NCBI GenBank assembly: GCA_905147135.1
Contig: LR990053.1
Coordinates: 4,414,501-4,478,500, forward strand
Length of the DNA stretch: 64,000 bases
Origin: Blastobasis lacticolella
Taxonomy: Eukaryota > Arthropoda > Insecta > Lepidoptera > Blastobasidae
Direction: 5' to 3'
Part shown: positions 1,380 to 61,275 of the stretch, in pieces
Layout: every line of letters begins with the position of its first letter
How positions within the stretch are numbered: position 1 is the first letter of the stretch
The notes under the pieces: model-generated
Databases searched by the model: none
What the model saw: the letters and a program-made list of their open reading frames with translations, nothing else
What the model was told of the DNA's origin: nothing
Program-made: the position numbers and the translations under genes

Positions 1380-4300
1380 TTGATGCTCACCACTCCCGTA
1401 CCGGGTGCCTGGCTTCGGAGGGCAGCGGGATCCGAAGCACGGTGCCGCCGCTGGCCGACCGTAGATAGTTGGGGGCCCAAGTAGCTGGTTAGCCGCCAGT
1501 GAAAGGCTGCCCCGCCATCTTACGAAAAATCCCAGATTGCTCTACCTTGCCGGTTGGCGACCGGATGGGAGGGCCAGGTAGCCAATTTGGGGGGGTTCGG
1601 GCGTCCCCGCGGTCTCCGCGTCAGGCACCTTCCCGTGCGGTATTGGTGAGCATGTTTGCTGGTGGGCGGAGCGCCACCTCGTCCAACTGCCATCCTCCTA
1701 AAACAACCTTTTCACTCAAACTCATGATCAGTAAAAAAAAGAGAAACGTTAAACAGCGGCTGCACTCCCTCCCACTCAAAGTGCACCTCACTAACATCCG
1801 AGGCCTGCACTCAAATCTCGATGCAGTCCACTACCACCTTGAAACTGAACAACCACAGCTGCTGTTCCTCACCGAGACGCAGATCAGATGTCCGGCTGAC
1901 GCGGCGTACCTCAGCTACCCAGGGTATACTCTCGAGCACAGGTTTGTACCTCGTGCCGGAGTCTGTGTCTACGCTCGCGAAGACATCTGCATTCGGCGTC
2001 TAAGGAGCTTTGAGGGGTCTAGTTTCTCTATTTTATGGTTGCTGGTGGATACAGGTCAAGAACAACTCCTGTATGCGTGCATTTACCGATCGCACAGCGG
2101 GGATCAGGAGACGACTCGCTTATGTGACCATCTCGTAGAAGTGGCGGATGAAGCGAGGGAACGTTACCCCGCGGCGCAGTTAGTCATTCTGGGGGATTTC
2201 AATGCCCACCACCAAGAGTGGCTTTTCCCATACCAGATGACGGATCATGCTGGGAGAGAGGCACGTAAACTAGCTCTGTCGCTAGATCTCACCCAGCTGG
2301 TAAGCTGTGCCACGAGGGTACCTGATGTTGACTCCCATACCGCCAATTGCTTAGACCTTCTGCTGACAACTGATCCGGACAGGCACTCAGTATCGGTTTC
2401 TGCACCGCTGGGTACATCCGATCACTGTCTGGTGAAATCTGTATCCGTTTATTCCCCACCCGAGCAAACCCCATGCAACCCCCGACGGGTGTGGCGATAC
2501 AAGTCAGCAGATTGGGATGAGATGCGCCACTTCTTTTCGTCCTATCCTTGGCGGGAGGCATGCTTCTCTTCGGGCGATCCGTCGAATTGTGCCGAAGCCG
2601 TTACCGCGGTTATACGGCAGGGTATGGAGTATTTTATTCCGTATTCTGACGTAGCGATGAACGGCAGGTCTCGTCCATGGTTTAGTGCTGAGTGTAGTCG
2701 CGCTGAAGTGCTGAAGCGGGCGGCATACTCTGCCTGGGCTGAGGCTCGAGCGCATATGTCTCCGGATACTCGCAAACTGAAGAGAGCCTTTAACCTCGCC
2801 GCCAAGTCTTGCAAAAGGACGCTACGCAGGGCTCGATTCGATCACATAAGCCGGATTGGCGCCAAACTGGCCTCTTACCCTCCTGGGAGTAAGGCGTTTT
2901 GGTCTTTGGCAAAAGCGGTCGAATCAAATTTCAGCCAGTCTTCGTTGCCTCCGTTGCTAAAACCAGACGGAACATTGGCCCATGCTGCTGAAGAGAAAGC
3001 AAATTTGCTTGTTTCTCTTTTCGCGGCGAATTCGCGTTTGGATACTGCAGGAAAAACACCACCTATCTCACACCGTGCTGACTGCGCTATGGCTGAGGTG
3101 CGAATACATCAGAAAGAGATTTTGAAAATCCTGCGGAGTCTGGACGTGAACAAGGCTAGTGGACCAGATGGTATACCGGCAATAGTCCTGCGTAGTTGTG
3201 CCCCTGAGCTGTCTCCTGTTCTCACGCGCCTGTATCGCCTCTCACTTGAGACTGGTATTGTACCTAGGTCGTGGAAGCTTGCCAATGTGCAGCCCGTGCC
3301 AAAAAAAGGCAGCCGTGCCGACCCTTCCAATTACCGCCCTATTTCGGTCACTTCCATACTCTGTAAGATTATGGAACGTGCGCTGAACAATAAACTCCTT
3401 GCGCATCTTGAAGGTAACGATCTCCTCAGCGATCACCAGTACGGATTCCGCCGTGGTCGGTCTACTGGGGACCTTCTGGTGTATGCCACACAATTATGGA
3501 GTGAGGCCATTGAGAGACATGGCGAGGCCCTTGCTGTGTCTCTTGATATTTCTAAGGCCTTTGACAGGGTTTGGCATGCTTGCCTTCTAAGCAAGCTTCC
3601 TTCATTTGGTATTCCTGTTGGCTTTTGCACCTGGATATCAGATTTTTTGAGTGAACGTTCAATCCGTGTAGTTATCGATGGCTACTCGTCTAATCTTCAG
3701 GCTATCGACGCGGGAGTTCCTCAGGGATCTGTACTGTCCGCGACTTTATTCCTGCTGCATATTAACAATCTGCTTGTACCAGGTACCTTTGGGTATGCAG
3801 ATGACAGCACGGTAACGGATAGATATCTGTCAGAGGCAAAAGCCAACAGGGACGATATTCAGTCTTGTCGAGAGGCCATGGTTGATCGTTTGGACATAGC
3901 TCTCAAGGCAGTTTCTGATTGGGGCGATGCCAATCTGGTGGCGTTCAACGCAACCAAAACTCAGGCGTGTTTGTTTTCCGCCAAAAGGAGTCCATTCCAT
4001 CTTACTCCAACTTTTCGGGATGTTCCTGTGGAAATTACCGACAACCTACAGCTTCTTGGTGTTGAGTTATCTTCAAATCTCAACTTCGGTCAGTACATCG
4101 AATCCAAGGCAAAGACTGCAGCAAAAAAACTTGGTATCCTCTCGAAGGTTAGGCGGTACTTCACTTCTAGGCAGTTGCTTCAGTTATATCAAGCACAAGT
4201 GCGGTCCTGCATGGAGTACTGCTGCCACCTTTGGGATGGATCAGCTAAATATCAACTGGCGGCTTTGGATTCGGTGGAAAAACGTGCAAAGAAGATAATT

Positions 4301-4730
4301 TGTGACCCGCGGTTGATTAAGGCTAGGCTGCAGAGCCTCGAACATCGGCGTAGGGTTGCGCGTCTTTCGGTCTTCTACAGATTACATTTCGGAGAGTGTG
4401 CGAAGCAGCTGCACGACCTCATTCCGCCGGCCCCTTTCCGCCATCGGGAAACGCGATCCGGGCGAGCGCTTCATCCTTATGTCGTGGATCTTCCAGCCAT
4501 CCGCACGAACCGCTTTGGCTCGACCTTTATAATGCGTACGGCTAAGGAATGGAACGCTTTGCCTGCGGGTGTGTTCCCTGATCAATATAATCTGGATGCC
4601 TTTAAGGCTAGAGTGAATAGGCTGTTCCAAGACGGGCATGCTTCATCTTCGGCCGCATCGTCACTTACCAACAGGTGAGATGGCGGTCAAATGCCCGACT
4701 TGTTTGCCATAAAAAAAAAAAAAAAAAAAA
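1380..4730 (+). mobile_element. Long non-LTR retrotransposon (CR1/Jockey-like LINE) with poly(A)
   Basis: A GC-rich leader (about 1380-1498) precedes a single long ORF, a short 3' UTR and a run of 20 A at 4711-4730. Its base composition is much more GC-rich than the flanks. The 5' boundary is uncertain, and I found no convincing target-site duplication. The 3' end recurs as fragments at 16215-16352 (minus) and 24610-25842 (plus, broken by a solo LTR), so the family has been repeatedly active here. Confidence 0.85.
1499..4678 (+). CDS. LINE ORF2-like endonuclease/reverse transcriptase, uninterrupted
   Basis: The 1059-residue ORF encodes an apurinic-like endonuclease followed by reverse transcriptase, the machinery for target-primed reverse transcription of a LINE. 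The endonuclease spans about residues 95-313, with NIRGLHSN (99-106), TET (125-127), GDFNAHH (232-238) and SDHCLV (307-312). The RT spans about 545-880, with NKASGPDGIP (551-560), NYRPIS (611-616), QYGFRRGRST (647-656), DISKAFDR (683-690), GVPQGS (739-744) and the catalytic YADD (766-769). The C-terminus holds the usual EWNALPAGVFP motif. There are no stops or frameshifts across nearly 3.2 kb, so the copy is young. The first 70 or so residues look low-complexity and unlike the endonuclease, so the true start may be the Met near residue 76 or the N-terminus may be an ORF1/leader remnant. No separate ORF1 or CCHC knuckle was seen. CR1 versus Jockey clade is not resolvable by eye. Confidence 0.9.
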   Translation: MKGCPAILRKIPDCSTLPVGDRMGGPGSQFGGVRASPRSPRQAPSRAVLVSMFAGGRSATSSNCHPPKTTFSLKLMISKKKRNVKQRLHSLPLKVHLTNIRGLHSNLDAVHYHLETEQPQLLFLTETQIRCPADAAYLSYPGYTLEHRFVPRAGVCVYAREDICIRRLRSFEGSSFSILWLLVDTGQEQLLYACIYRSHSGDQETTRLCDHLVEVADEARERYPAAQLVILGDFNAHHQEWLFPYQMTDHAGREARKLALSLDLTQLVSCATRVPDVDSHTANCLDLLLTTDPDRHSVSVSAPLGTSDHCLVKSVSVYSPPEQTPCNPRRVWRYKSADWDEMRHFFSSYPWREACFSSGDPSNCAEAVTAVIRQGMEYFIPYSDVAMNGRSRPWFSAECSRAEVLKRAAYSAWAEARAHMSPDTRKLKRAFNLAAKSCKRTLRRARFDHISRIGAKLASYPPGSKAFWSLAKAVESNFSQSSLPPLLKPDGTLAHAAEEKANLLVSLFAANSRLDTAGKTPPISHRADCAMAEVRIHQKEILKILRSLDVNKASGPDGIPAIVLRSCAPELSPVLTRLYRLSLETGIVPRSWKLANVQPVPKKGSRADPSNYRPISVTSILCKIMERALNNKLLAHLEGNDLLSDHQYGFRRGRSTGDLLVYATQLWSEAIERHGEALAVSLDISKAFDRVWHACLLSKLPSFGIPVGFCTWISDFLSERSIRVVIDGYSSNLQAIDAGVPQGSVLSATLFLLHINNLLVPGTFGYADDSTVTDRYLSEAKANRDDIQSCREAMVDRLDIALKAVSDWGDANLVAFNATKTQACLFSAKRSPFHLTPTFRDVPVEITDNLQLLGVELSSNLNFGQYIESKAKTAAKKLGILSKVRRYFTSRQLLQLYQAQVRSCMEYCCHLWDGSAKYQLAALDSVEKRAKKIICDPRLIKARLQSLEHRRRVARLSVFYRLHFGECAKQLHDLIPPAPFRHRETRSGRALHPYVVDLPAIRTNRFGSTFIMRTAKEWNALPAGVFPDQYNLDAFKARVNRLFQDGHASSSAASSLTNR

Positions 4731-10569: not shown

Positions 10570-10896
10570 ATCATCATCATCTTGGCGTTCATGTCCCGAT
10601 TGTGCGCCTTGGCCATAATCCAGGATTTGGTGATCAAGTAATTACAGTGGAGCGACTGCCGTCTGACCTCCGTGACCCTACTACCAGGGGAACCTGACCA
10701 GATTGGATCATGGTTACAAATTCAGTTTGCAGTGTCTGAATTTGCAGGTTTCCCTCACCGTAAGAGCATGGGTTAGCATTCAACTAATGTACATAACTCA
10801 GAAGAAAGTCATTGGTGCATGGCCACAGCGGGTTTCTAACCCGGTACATTTCGATTACGAATCGAATACCCTAACCCCTCGGCCACCGACGCTCGC
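10570..10896 (-). mobile_element. SINE family A, near full length
   Basis: On the minus strand the order is tRNA-like head, tctgagttatgtacattagt, cttacggtgagg, and the tail ending in the reverse complement of 'catcatcatcttggcg'. The body lacks about 25 bp in its middle compared with other copies. Confidence 0.85.
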
Positions 10897-19164: not shown

Positions 19165-19413
19165 GCTTATATTTCATTTATTTATTTATTCTGTGTACTT
19201 TAAACATGCTTATCGTCAGGATCCCACTGCACATCAGCACTGACTGTAGCTTATGCTGAGTTAGGGTATTTTTTTTGGGATGGCATGGTAAATGATTTAT
19301 TGTATTTGTATGTTTGTATCTACTTTATTTAAGCATTGAACTGTTCTAAAAGTACCTTAATATATGTAAACGTTTATGGATTTTTTGTAATGCCAAAATA
19401 AATCATGTCTATG
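19165..19413 (+). mobile_element. 3' UTR of the Jockey-like LINE family
   Basis: Matches the 3' tail of the dead LINE at 51435-53190: tttatttatttattctgtgt, ggatcccactgcacatcagc, gtaaacgtttatggattttt and aaataaatcatgtctatg. The (tgtcta) tail is interrupted by the TRIM that follows and resumes at 19855. Confidence 0.8.
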
Positions 19414-19574
19414 TGTCTATGACACAATCTCTTTTGATTATATTTTTATACTCTGTTTTTTGTCTATTCTTATTGCAGTGTAACGAAGATACATACATTT
19501 CACAAATATATTAATTTAAAATATTAAAGGGTAGTTTAACTAGTAAAAGTCCTAGAAAAGTGTTGTCCTTTACA
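19414..19574 (+). repeat. TRIM 5' LTR
   Basis: 161 bp, TGT...ACA. It differs from the 3' LTR at four single bases (c/a near the start, g/c, t/c and g/a near the end). Confidence 0.9.
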
Positions 19575-19590
19575 TGGTGCCGAAACCCGA
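19575..19590 (+). promoter_or_regulatory. TRIM primer binding site
   Basis: TGGTGCCGAAACCCGA directly abuts the 5' LTR. It starts with the TGG expected opposite a tRNA CCA 3' end. The priming tRNA was not identified. Confidence 0.8.
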
Positions 19591-19693
19591 ATTAGTTGAC
19601 TAATAATGTTTGATAGTTAAGTTAAGATTATAAGTTAATGTTTTGTTTAATGTTAATGCTAAGTTAATTTTAATTTATCCTTCCTGGGGAGCA

Positions 19694-19854
19694 TGTATAT
19701 GACACAATCTCTTTTGATTATATTTTTATACTCTGTTTTTTGTCTATTCTTATTGCAGTCTAACGAAGATACATACATTTCACAAATATATTAATTTAAA
19801 ATATTAAAGGGCAGTTTAACTAGTAAAAGTCCTAGAAAAGTGTTATCCTTTACA
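19694..19854 (+). repeat. TRIM 3' LTR
   Basis: 161 bp, TGT...ACA, preceded by ctggggagca (polypurine-like) and followed by the CTATG target duplication. Confidence 0.9.
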
Positions 19855-19859
19855 CTATG

Positions 19860-35046: not shown

Positions 35047-35175
35047 AGTTAACTAAAAGTATGATCCTCTTGCTGACGGCCGGCGGCACGTCGTTGGACG
35101 CGATGCAGAGGAAGGCGCCCATCTGGCGGCGGTCGACGCGCCACAGCGGCAGCGCACTGCCCGTGAAGCTCTCCA
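35047..35175 (-). CDS. IgSF adhesion protein (DIP/lachesin-like), exon for 2nd half of Ig2
   Basis: The 129-bp exon encodes VESFTGSALPLWRVDRRQMG then AFLCIASNDVPPAVSKRIIL and LVN. MGAFLCIASNDVPPAVSKRI is the diagnostic end of Ig2 in DIP and lachesin proteins (MGAYLCIASNGVPPSVSKRI-type). The acceptor is accattttgttcgcag and the donor aact|gtgagc. Phase 1 in joins G|TG from the upstream exon; phase 1 out joins T|TT to give Phe. The intron side abuts five further copies of the acceptor and of the first 86 or so bases of this exon (35176-35763). Only this proximal copy carries the full exon, including the VPPAVSKRI end and a donor. Confidence 0.92.
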
Positions 35176-35763
35176 CTGCGAACAAAATGGTGATGCAGTA
35201 ATCGGATGTTGAAAGCGAGACAGAGGAAGGCGCCCATATAACAGCGGTCCACGCGCCACAGCGGCAGCGCGCTGCCCGTGAAGCTCTCCACTGCGAACAA
35301 AATGGTGATACAGTAATCGGATGTTGGAGGCGAGACAGAGGAAGGCGCCCATATGATAGCGATCCACGCGCCACAGCGGCAGCGCGCTGCCCGTGAAGCT
35401 CTCCACTGCGAACAAAATGATGATGCAGTAATCGGATTTTGTAGGCGAGACAGAGGAAGGCGCCCCATATGACAGCGGTCCACGCGCCACAGCGGCAGCG
35501 CGCTGCCCGTGAAGCTCTCCACTGCGAACAAAGTTATGATGCAGTAATCGGATATTGGAGGCAAGACAGAGGAAGGCGCCCATATGACAGCGGTCCACGC
35601 GCCACAGCGGCAGCGTGCTGCCCGTGAAGCTCTCCACTGCGAACAAAATGGTGATACAGTAATCGGATGTTGAAAGCGAGACAGAGGAAGGCGCCCATAT
35701 GACAGCGGTCCACGCGCCATAGCGGCAGCGTGCTGCCCGTGCTCTCCACTGCGAACGAAACGG
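35176..35763 (-). repeat. 115-bp tandem array of splice acceptor plus half exon
   Basis: Splice-acceptor copies lie at 35176, 35291, 35406, 35522, 35637 and 35749 (plus-strand coordinate of the AG's G complement), a period of 115, 115, 116, 115 and 112 bp. Each unit holds about 29 bp of intron end (atccgattactgcatcacc ... ttgttcgcag) and about 86 bp of exon start encoding VESFTGSALPLWRVDR then MGAFLC and ASN-like residues. The units lack a donor and the VPPAVSKRI part. Because 115 is not a multiple of three, distal acceptors would shift the frame. The most distal one is in phase (573 bp) but its frame meets a stop near 35534. Confidence 0.92.
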
Positions 35764-36009
35764 TGGTACAGTAAACGGCTTCCTCACTTGACAGGCGATA
35801 TTGCGACCTAGTGCCTGGCTACATGCCTCAAGCAGGATCTCCATCATGGAGATCAGTGGAGAGAGTTGTAGGAAGATTTAAACGTGGGTTAAGAATATCG
35901 TCAATATATCGTCACGGGGTGTCAATCGGCTATCGAGACTCTGAGTTTATTTCTACTACAATAAAGAAAGGAAGGCATTGTTATTGTTTTACTGTTTTTA
36001 TTTTATTTT

Positions 36010-51434: not shown

Positions 51435-53190
51435 GATCAACATAACAAACATCAAGATCTCGAAATTACGGCAATATATATTTGGTGCTTATATTAAGCA
51501 TGAGACGGCGGTGGCTTTGCTGGACGTTGTTGATAATATCATCGCAGCACAGGATGAGGGCAAGGGCACAATCATGACGTTGCTAGATTTTTCGCAGGCT
51601 TTTGGCTAAAATGGCGTTCCATGGATTTTATGCGATGACAATACATTGGTTCTCTAGTTACCTTACTAATCGTTATCAGGTGAATTACGATAGGGGACAG
51701 ACGTTCTTATCCAGTCCGAAATTACTGCATAGAGGCGTGCCTCAGGGCTCAATCCTGGGCCCTGTTTTATTTATATTTTACACCGCAGATATGAGCAACG
51801 TAATCGAGCATTGCAGAAATCACATTTATCTCTCAAGTTTATATTTCTTTTAACCCAGCAGAGACTAATGTAGCAGTAGATATATTGCGTGCCGACCTGG
51901 AGCGATTAGCCGCTTGGTGTGACAGGAATTGTCTACTTTTAAATCCGATAAAAACAAAATATATGTTATGGGGGTCCAGGCAACAAGTTGCACGTTTGTC
52001 AGGCCGTAATCCGGTAATTTCAATTAAAGGTGTCCAAATCAACCGAGAAAAGGATACCCGCAATCTAGGTCTTAAATTAGATGAAGATTTGTCACATGTT
52101 CTTGATACAATTCGCAATTGCTTTTCTCGATTGAAAGTACTATATTTCATACGGGATTTTTTATCAGTTGACTTGCGTGTCAGGATATGCGACTCTCTAG
52201 TGCTGTCTAAGTTGGAATACGGAGACGTTGTCTATGGACCTAGACTGTTGGCACGAACGGACAGAGCTGTACAAAGGGTGAGCTGTACAAAGGGTGCAAA
52301 ACGCTTGTGCCCGTTATTGCTTTTCGATTCCTCCTAGAGGCCATGTCACCCCTTTTCTCAATGATGCTAATGTGTTGAAAATGACATTGCGTAGGGAATT
52401 ACATTTGGTTACACTATTGTTTGGTGTAATTAATACTGGAAAGCCGGAGTATATTTTTGAAAAACTTAGATTTCTGAAGGGAGGAGGTTCAAGAGGACTG
52501 CGCGCTGTCGGGGAGGTGCTGAACGTCCCGCGCCACCATTCAGCAGCTTTTCGTGGCAGTTTTCGTTACGCGGCTCCCAAATGTTGGAATAACTTACCAC
52601 CGCCATTACGTTTATGCAAAACTATCAATGCTTTTAAATGCAACCTTAAGAAAATGCTTCTAGTTTCAGAAAAGTATTCCGCTTGGTGGTCGCGCCATTA
52701 CACGTTACTTGGCAACATCTTGGCAATGATATATGAATTTTATCATATACATATTTAGATATATGAATTATTTATTTATCAAAGTATGTATCTTCGTTAT
52801 TTATAAAAGATGCCTACGCCTACGTAGTGTTTAATCAATTTTTTATATTTCGCAAAAACACATTAACTTTGTTCTTTTTTACACATATACTTTAATTTAA
52901 TTACGTATATATTTCATTTATTTATTTATTTTATTTATGCTGTGTACTGAAGTATAAACAGCAGGTTTCCATAACGTCAAGATCCCACTGAAAATCAGCG
53001 CTGCAGCACTTGTTGTAGCTAATGCTGAGCTGATGTCTTTTTTTGGCATTGCATTGGTCCATGATTTGTTGGGTTTGTGTGTTTGTAACTACTTTATTTT
53101 TGTTTAGTATTGTAGTGTTCTAAAATTTTCATAACATGTAAACGCTTATGGATTTTTGTGATGTCAAAATAAATCATGTCTATGTCTAAC
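51435..53190 (+). pseudogene. Jockey-like LINE reverse transcriptase, inactivated
   Basis: Successive frames give HETAVALLDVVDNIIAAQDE, TIMTLLDFSQAF, KMAFHGFYAMTIHWFSSYLT, RGVPQGSILGPVLF, then WCDRNCLLLNPIKTKYMLWG and CWNNLPPPLRLCKTINAFKC. This is the palm and thumb of a Jockey-like RT. Three disabling events are visible. A deletion after LDFSQAF (51602) shifts the frame. The catalytic ADD of the YADD box is missing between HIY and the following SQVYISFNPAET frame (about 51829). A 16-bp tandem duplication (agctgtacaaagggtg at 52265-52280 and 52281-52296) shifts the frame again. The 3' UTR runs to aaataaatcatgtctatgtc at about 53165-53190 and is shared with 19165-19413. Confidence 0.88.
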
Positions 53191-61076: not shown

Positions 61077-61275
61077 AGGCCTTGCCACATACAAAGCTCG
61101 GCGCGAGCGCGGCGCGTTATTTGCTAGGCAACCATCGCGCCGCCCGATGGTTGCCTAGCAAATAACGCGCCGCGCGATGGTTGCCTAGCAACTATCGCGC
61201 CGCGCGATGGTTGCCTAGCAAATATCGCACCGCGCTCACGCCGCGCTCGCGCCGAGCTTTGTATGTGGCAAGGCT
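61077..61275. mobile_element. 199-bp GC-rich MITE flanked by TTAA
   Basis: TTAA lies at 61073-61076 and 61276-61279. The ends aggccttgccacatacaaag... and (inverted) agccttgccacatacaaag... continue as ctcggcgcgagcgcggcg on both arms. The centre holds three direct cgatggttgcctagcaa units and one inverted unit. A TTAA duplication is the piggyBac hallmark, but the termini are not of the usual CCC type. Confidence 0.85.

Follow-up and report, generated by a model that had tools for sequence, protein, structure and literature searches.

The window, the 64,000-nt stretch of Blastobasis lacticolella DNA analyzed here, corresponds to C14:4414501-4478500 of its source genome (577 Mb, 45 contigs; C-numbers denote contigs), and this genome was the one searched. 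At 19414-19854 of the window lies a 441-bp insertion with the layout of a miniature LTR retrotransposon, set in the (TGTCTA) tail of a LINE. The locus contains the following features.

19172..19413 (+), interrupted LINE 3' tail, matching the copy at 52921-53188
19409..19413 (.), target-site duplication CTATG, left copy
19414..19574 (+), 5' LTR, 161 bp, TGT...ACA
19575..19589 (+), PBS, 15-nt uninterrupted complement of the tRNA-Phe(GAA) 3' terminus plus CCA
19590..19593 (+), AATT, 4 nt at the deletion junction, with no source found in relatives
19594..19693 (+), 3'-terminal 100 nt of the parent interior, starting with AGTT
19686..19691 (+), purine run GGGGAG ahead of the 3' LTR, probable plus-strand primer region
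19694..19854 (+), 3' LTR, 161 bp
19855..19859 (.), target-site duplication CTATG, right copy

The two LTRs start with TGT, end with ACA, and show 4 mismatches (19414-19574 versus 19694-19854; 97.5% identity; K2P 0.025 +/- 0.012), just as in the preliminary description, which took the element for a textbook TRIM and proposed a family. Its account of the interior also holds: the 119 bp between the LTRs open at position +1 with the PBS-like sequence TGGTGCCGAAACCCG, for which the proposed comparison with tRNA 3' ends gives a 15-nt match to tRNA-Phe(GAA), and coding capacity is absent, with 39 aa as the longest ORF overlapping the element. The polypurine-like tract described ahead of the 3' LTR stands in part. 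The tract (CTGGGGAGCA) is weakly polypurine but includes a short run, GGGGAG, and is identical in C4, C6, C7, C23, and C30; since the run is the same in these five relatives having that end, it is probably the purine tract in use.

CTATG flanks the element on either side (19409-19413 and 19855-19859) as a 5-bp target-site duplication. The LINE tail matches the copy at 52921-53188, which had previously been placed as ending at 53190, over 19172-19199 and again, with about 79% identity, over 19235-19413; the LINE-tail block of 190 columns has 79% identity and 12 gaps. When one CTATG is kept and the flanks are joined, the end of the tail is restored in phase and with no gap at the join. The joined site reads TCATGTCTATG plus TCTA, versus TCATGTCTATGTCTA in the copy ending at 53188, and the alignment extends 4 nt (TCTA) beyond the join, to what is the end of the tail of that copy too. 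We judge a 161-bp repeat inside a 5-bp duplication that restores the tail phase to be far beyond chance. The 5-bp duplication, the site restored by joining the flanks, and relatives elsewhere in the genome all speak against an ordinary local duplication, the alternative raised in the preliminary description, which we reject.

The window holds several other features. A 1059-aa ORF at 1499-4678 (+) with endonuclease and reverse transcriptase domains represents a LINE with long coding capacity. A 115-bp unit is repeated 5.9 times (92%) at 35106-35778, enclosed by minus-strand open frames (35049-35847) that have no Pfam match at E 0.001, and a GC-rich 30-bp minisatellite of 3.4 copies occupies 61134-61235. 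ARAGORN calls a tRNA-Thr (cgt) gene at 10821-10892 (-); because it is missing from the Rfam scan at the gathering threshold, it is perhaps a tRNA-derived repeat.

Searching the genome with the 441 bp yielded 29 matches, all of them scored (29/29) and giving counts that are lower bounds; the sequence of 26 of the 29 places was retrieved, all but three short ones (C5, C25, and C30:24.8M). The window's own copy is the only match at full length (1/29). Similarly, a 29-mer across the junction has no second site in the 577-Mb genome with up to 3 mismatches allowed. Nine of 10 matches to the interior start at base 20 or later and the window's alone starts at base 1, so the interior's 5' 19 bases and 3' 100 bases are joined only in the window. 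Six near-full-size single LTRs (158-161 bp) occur elsewhere in the genome, with a flanking duplication that is exact (5/5) in four, 4/5 in one, and 3/5 in one. Paired and solo LTRs with 5-bp duplications, as previously predicted, therefore exist, but they belong to the parent element and not to a 441-bp family. We reject a TRIM family in this genome on the single match found of the 441-bp form and its unique junction; the preliminary description had itself named the finding of only this copy as counting against its proposal. An exact 33-mer from the LTR has 0 matches among IMG/VR viral contigs.

The LTRs, PBS, and interior of the element derive from a low-copy BEL/Pao retrotransposon of 5.5-6.1 kb in the same genome, which is the larger element sharing LTR ends and PBS that had been anticipated. 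Both ends are present in four copies (C6, 5778 bp; C4, 6093 bp; C7, 5466 bp; C30, 4917 bp), whose interior ends are the same as those of the 441-bp element. In C30 the 5' LTR is truncated by 58 nt at its start, short deletions affect the 3' LTR in C4 and in C6, and C23 and C21 keep interior sequence with one end. BEL/Pao elements make a short target duplication of about 5 bp; here it is exact (5/5) in C4 and C6, 4/5 in C7, and 1/5 in the rearranged C30. The C6 and C7 copies, with their sequence left as it is, gave eight reading frames for a protein scan, and five of these had Pfam matches. Peptidase_A17, the Pao retrotransposon peptidase (best E 4.5e-45), passed the cut-off together with DUF1759 and DUF5641; RVT_1 (26.1 bits, cut-off 29.6) and rve (20.2, cut-off 32.6) fell short of it. 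A 560-bp query running from the PBS into gag has seven matches at six places: those on C4, C6, C7, C30, and C21 include the PBS region, and that on C22 begins 51 nt in.

Differences between the LTRs of a copy number 0/144 in C6, 1/143 in C4, 6/160 in C7, and 4/161 in the window. The window 5' LTR differs from the LTRs of C6, C4, C30, and C23 at 1-3 sites and the 3' LTR at 3-4 sites; the C7 and C21 LTRs are farther from both (4-10 sites). The majority base is present in one window LTR at each of the 4 differences. Three of the variants occur in no other of the 25 aligned rows, and the fourth (T in the 5' LTR) is common to the C7 5' LTR only, so the two LTRs were probably identical when made; this alignment leaves out five matches with little or no LTR (two on C22, C5, C25, and C30:24.8M).

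Relative to the parent, the interior is missing from directly behind the PBS to 100 nt ahead of the 3' LTR (about 5.4 kb, measured on C6), which leaves the layout LTR-PBS-(AATT)-100 nt-LTR. Only the 5' breakpoint abuts a signal: it adjoins the PBS directly, and the 3' breakpoint is 92 nt ahead of the purine run. The parents carry AGTT right behind the first 18 interior nt, a microhomology with the 3' breakpoint. The C6 copy has CAGTT at interior base 18 and again at the 3' breakpoint; the window junction retains AGTT without the full CAGTT. Random breakpoint pairs have at least 4 nt in common in 2.0% of cases (3.9% when restricted to the two interior ends) and at least 5 nt in 0.66% (2.3%). 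Ahead of AGTT the window reads CCGAATT, versus ATATTC in C6. The CCG extends the tRNA-Phe match, and no source for the AATT was found among the relatives. Source element, deleted segment, junction, and 5-bp duplication are all directly visible at this locus and its relatives.

Genes for tRNA-Phe(GAA) lie at five exact places in the genome, each with discriminator A; with CCA added, the tRNA 3' end pairs with TGGTGCCGAAACCCGGGA. The match is 15 nt long in the window, 16 nt in an abnormal insertion on C28, 13 nt in C4, and 12 nt in C6, C7, and C30. All five copies keeping the PBS and 5'UTR (C4, C6, C7, C30, and C21) have ATATTC or CTATTC behind GAAAC, including C21, in which the second PBS base is mutated and ATATTC is retained. 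The longer matches occur in both abnormal products (window and C28) and in 0/5 copies with PBS and 5'UTR, a contrast to be read as an after-the-fact comparison of 2 abnormal with 5 normal copies. A longer-PBS variant (CCCG...) is absent from all five.

A PBS-pattern search with up to 3 mismatches gave 68 matches, versus 180 for a reversed control, so most of the 68 are chance matches; six are exact (C4, C6, C7, C30, C28, and the window). At 30 of the 68, the sequence behind the PBS was read, and five of these sites (four on C8, one on C11) show GAAAC-CGG-ATATTCAG. This C8/C11 group, which retains GAAACCGGATATTCAG, is presumed, from its PBS region, to be a sister group. Three of its PBS sites (C8:4687064, 4692590, and 4698144) lie on one strand with 5526- and 5554-bp spacing, possibly as a tandem array with common LTRs.

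How was the miniature made? Our preferred reading, which we give roughly even odds, is a single-copy, internally deleted BEL/Pao derivative that became defective while being reverse-transcribed, around the step of plus-strand transfer, in a particle supplied by a full-length relative. Plus-strand strong-stop DNA, ending in a copy of the tRNA-Phe primer, would have bypassed its normal PBS partner and been linked to the minus strand in its 3' part, perhaps assisted by the AGTT microhomology, and the relative's integrase would have inserted the short double-stranded DNA with the usual 5-bp duplication. In this reading the deletion would have come ahead of integration, an order that a single copy cannot demonstrate, and the tRNA-copy step is plausible. 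Copying of the tRNA primer usually covers 18 nt, and Lauermann and Boeke reportedly dealt with tRNA inheritance in Ty1 in 1994 and 1997. Full 18-nt copying of tRNA-Phe lacks support because it predicts CCCGGGA and the window reads CCCGAATT. Against a tRNA copy, the AATT fits neither 18-nt tRNA-Phe copying (GGA expected after CCCG) nor in-register extension on the parental PBS, and the retention of AGTT without the full CAGTT also weighs against the preferred reading. Further, the CCCG could stem from a since-lost, longer-PBS variant of the parent, because the presumed sister group reads GAAAC-CGG-ATATTCAG.

More tentatively, the element may be a TRIM caught at birth, made in one step when a long tRNA-Phe copy misdirected plus-strand transfer. 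The copy would exceed the 12-13 nt of the element's own PBS, and its 3' end, unable to pair with the normal acceptor, would jump to the interior's 3' end. The C28 insertion would then be a relic of the intermediate, left untransferred by the same mismatch. That insertion (C28:1230992-1231167, minus strand) consists of a single LTR, a 16-nt tRNA-Phe-matching PBS, and an inverted 15-nt U5 end, followed by flank. No 5-bp duplication is seen there, and the parent interior is absent within 8 kb behind. The probable empty site is the neighboring tandem unit (…CCCTGTC CGCCAACC…), of which a 27-nt stretch was matched by BLAST and the remainder read by eye. Judging from this one locus, C28 is possibly plus-strand strong-stop DNA that folded back on itself and entered the chromosome through end joining.

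Two further unusual sequences of the family were seen. In the Pao copy at C30:31966723-31971639, the 5' LTR starts from LTR base 59; a piece of LTR that likewise starts there lies inverted within the copy, and part of the interior is found inverted beyond the 5' end. The copy looks like a self-integration or inversion. At C20:12166680-12166835 (minus), a poly(A)-tailed mRNA-like sequence joins the 3' interior of the element at query base 184, close to the window breakpoint at 181 (3 nt away), and ends at LTR base 61, a possible template-switch chimera.

The preferred reading, a defect during reverse transcription, competes with a deletion in the chromosome. A full-length Pao could have integrated here normally and lost its interior later by microhomology-mediated or slipped deletion. 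AGTT microhomology with a 4-nt filler is typical of end joining, and enough time has elapsed for such an event, since the LTRs differ at 4/161 sites. However, the tRNA-like bases would need another cause, because the five copies with PBS and 5'UTR have ATATTC or CTATTC, and not CCG, behind GAAAC; a random deletion also has no reason to end behind the PBS, though neat cases get noticed. On balance we regard a later deletion in place as doubtful. Alternatively, a longer-PBS form of the parent (CCCG...), since lost, could have supplied the RNA, with minus-strand synthesis switching template from its 3' AGTT to its 5' one. This route would likewise use the microhomology and draws on the GAAACCGGATATTCAG kept by the presumed sister group, but that form is missing in 5/5 copies that keep PBS and 5'UTR, the more diverged C7 and C21 included, and CCGAATT itself is unseen in surviving copies, so we consider the route unlikely. 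A genuine TRIM family of the source lineage, with one copy kept in this species, is highly improbable: the structural features that a single copy can share with TRIMs are all present or nearly so, but the form is confined to 1/29 matches, the junction is unique at up to 3 mismatches, and of 10 interior matches the window's alone begins at the PBS.

The 441-bp element is a TRIM-like singleton and possibly a stillborn TRIM. It is under 1 kb in total, has LTRs within 100-350 bp, a PBS directly behind the 5' LTR, no coding capacity, and a target-site duplication. The miniature LTR structure behind the label "textbook TRIM" stands; a multicopy family transposed as a miniature is not found in this genome (1/29 matches, junction once), and for want of this property we do not file the element as a TRIM family. 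PbTRIM of the harvester ant (PMC3532108), ta-TRIM of cestodes (PMC4558846), and biv-TRIM of bivalves (PMC6934838) are likewise under 1 kb and non-coding with LTRs of 100-350 bp; unlike these three, the element has one copy and a full-length BEL/Pao parent in the same genome. PbTRIM (LTRs 152-184 bp) resembles it in having a PBS of about 15 nt directly behind the 5' LTR but has 4-bp rather than 5-bp duplications, whereas in biv-TRIM no clear PBS was found.

The closest precedent is the rice TRIM OsajRetroS10 (PMC4717578), an internal deletion of the still-present full-length element OsajLTRA10. There, too, the LTR is followed closely by the 5' breakpoint: the LTR measures 115 bp and the breakpoint falls near nt 130, about 15 nt farther in, on a 25-bp sequence; unlike the parent here, OsajLTRA10 is Ty1-copia and has that sequence duplicated at the breakpoint, and unlike the one-copy 441-bp element, OsajRetroS10 transposed recently (PMC4717578). 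In the same source, 11/289 plant TRIM subfamilies have a related larger element, and the TRIM sources named in the excerpts of PMC10886601 and PMC4717578 are Copia and Gypsy. The whole words BEL and Pao are absent from PMC10886601 and PMC4558846, which does not establish that such a source has gone unpublished, and our search of the open-licence PMC literature found no paper on a lepidopteran TRIM, a weak negative. BEL/Pao LTR retrotransposons are the source of the LTRs, PBS, and interior ends of the 441-bp element, from which gag and pol are both gone. We take the 25-bp sequence at the OsajRetroS10 breakpoint to hold the initiator-Met PBS.

To our knowledge, the origin of TRIMs is poorly known. 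A miniature with a BEL/Pao parent in the same genome makes one hypothesis of their origin testable, since a tRNA-primed intermediate may have left its trace in the junction. If misdirected transfer of a long tRNA-Phe copy is general, families with a shortened PBS would be prone to producing TRIMs with a 5' breakpoint right next to the PBS.
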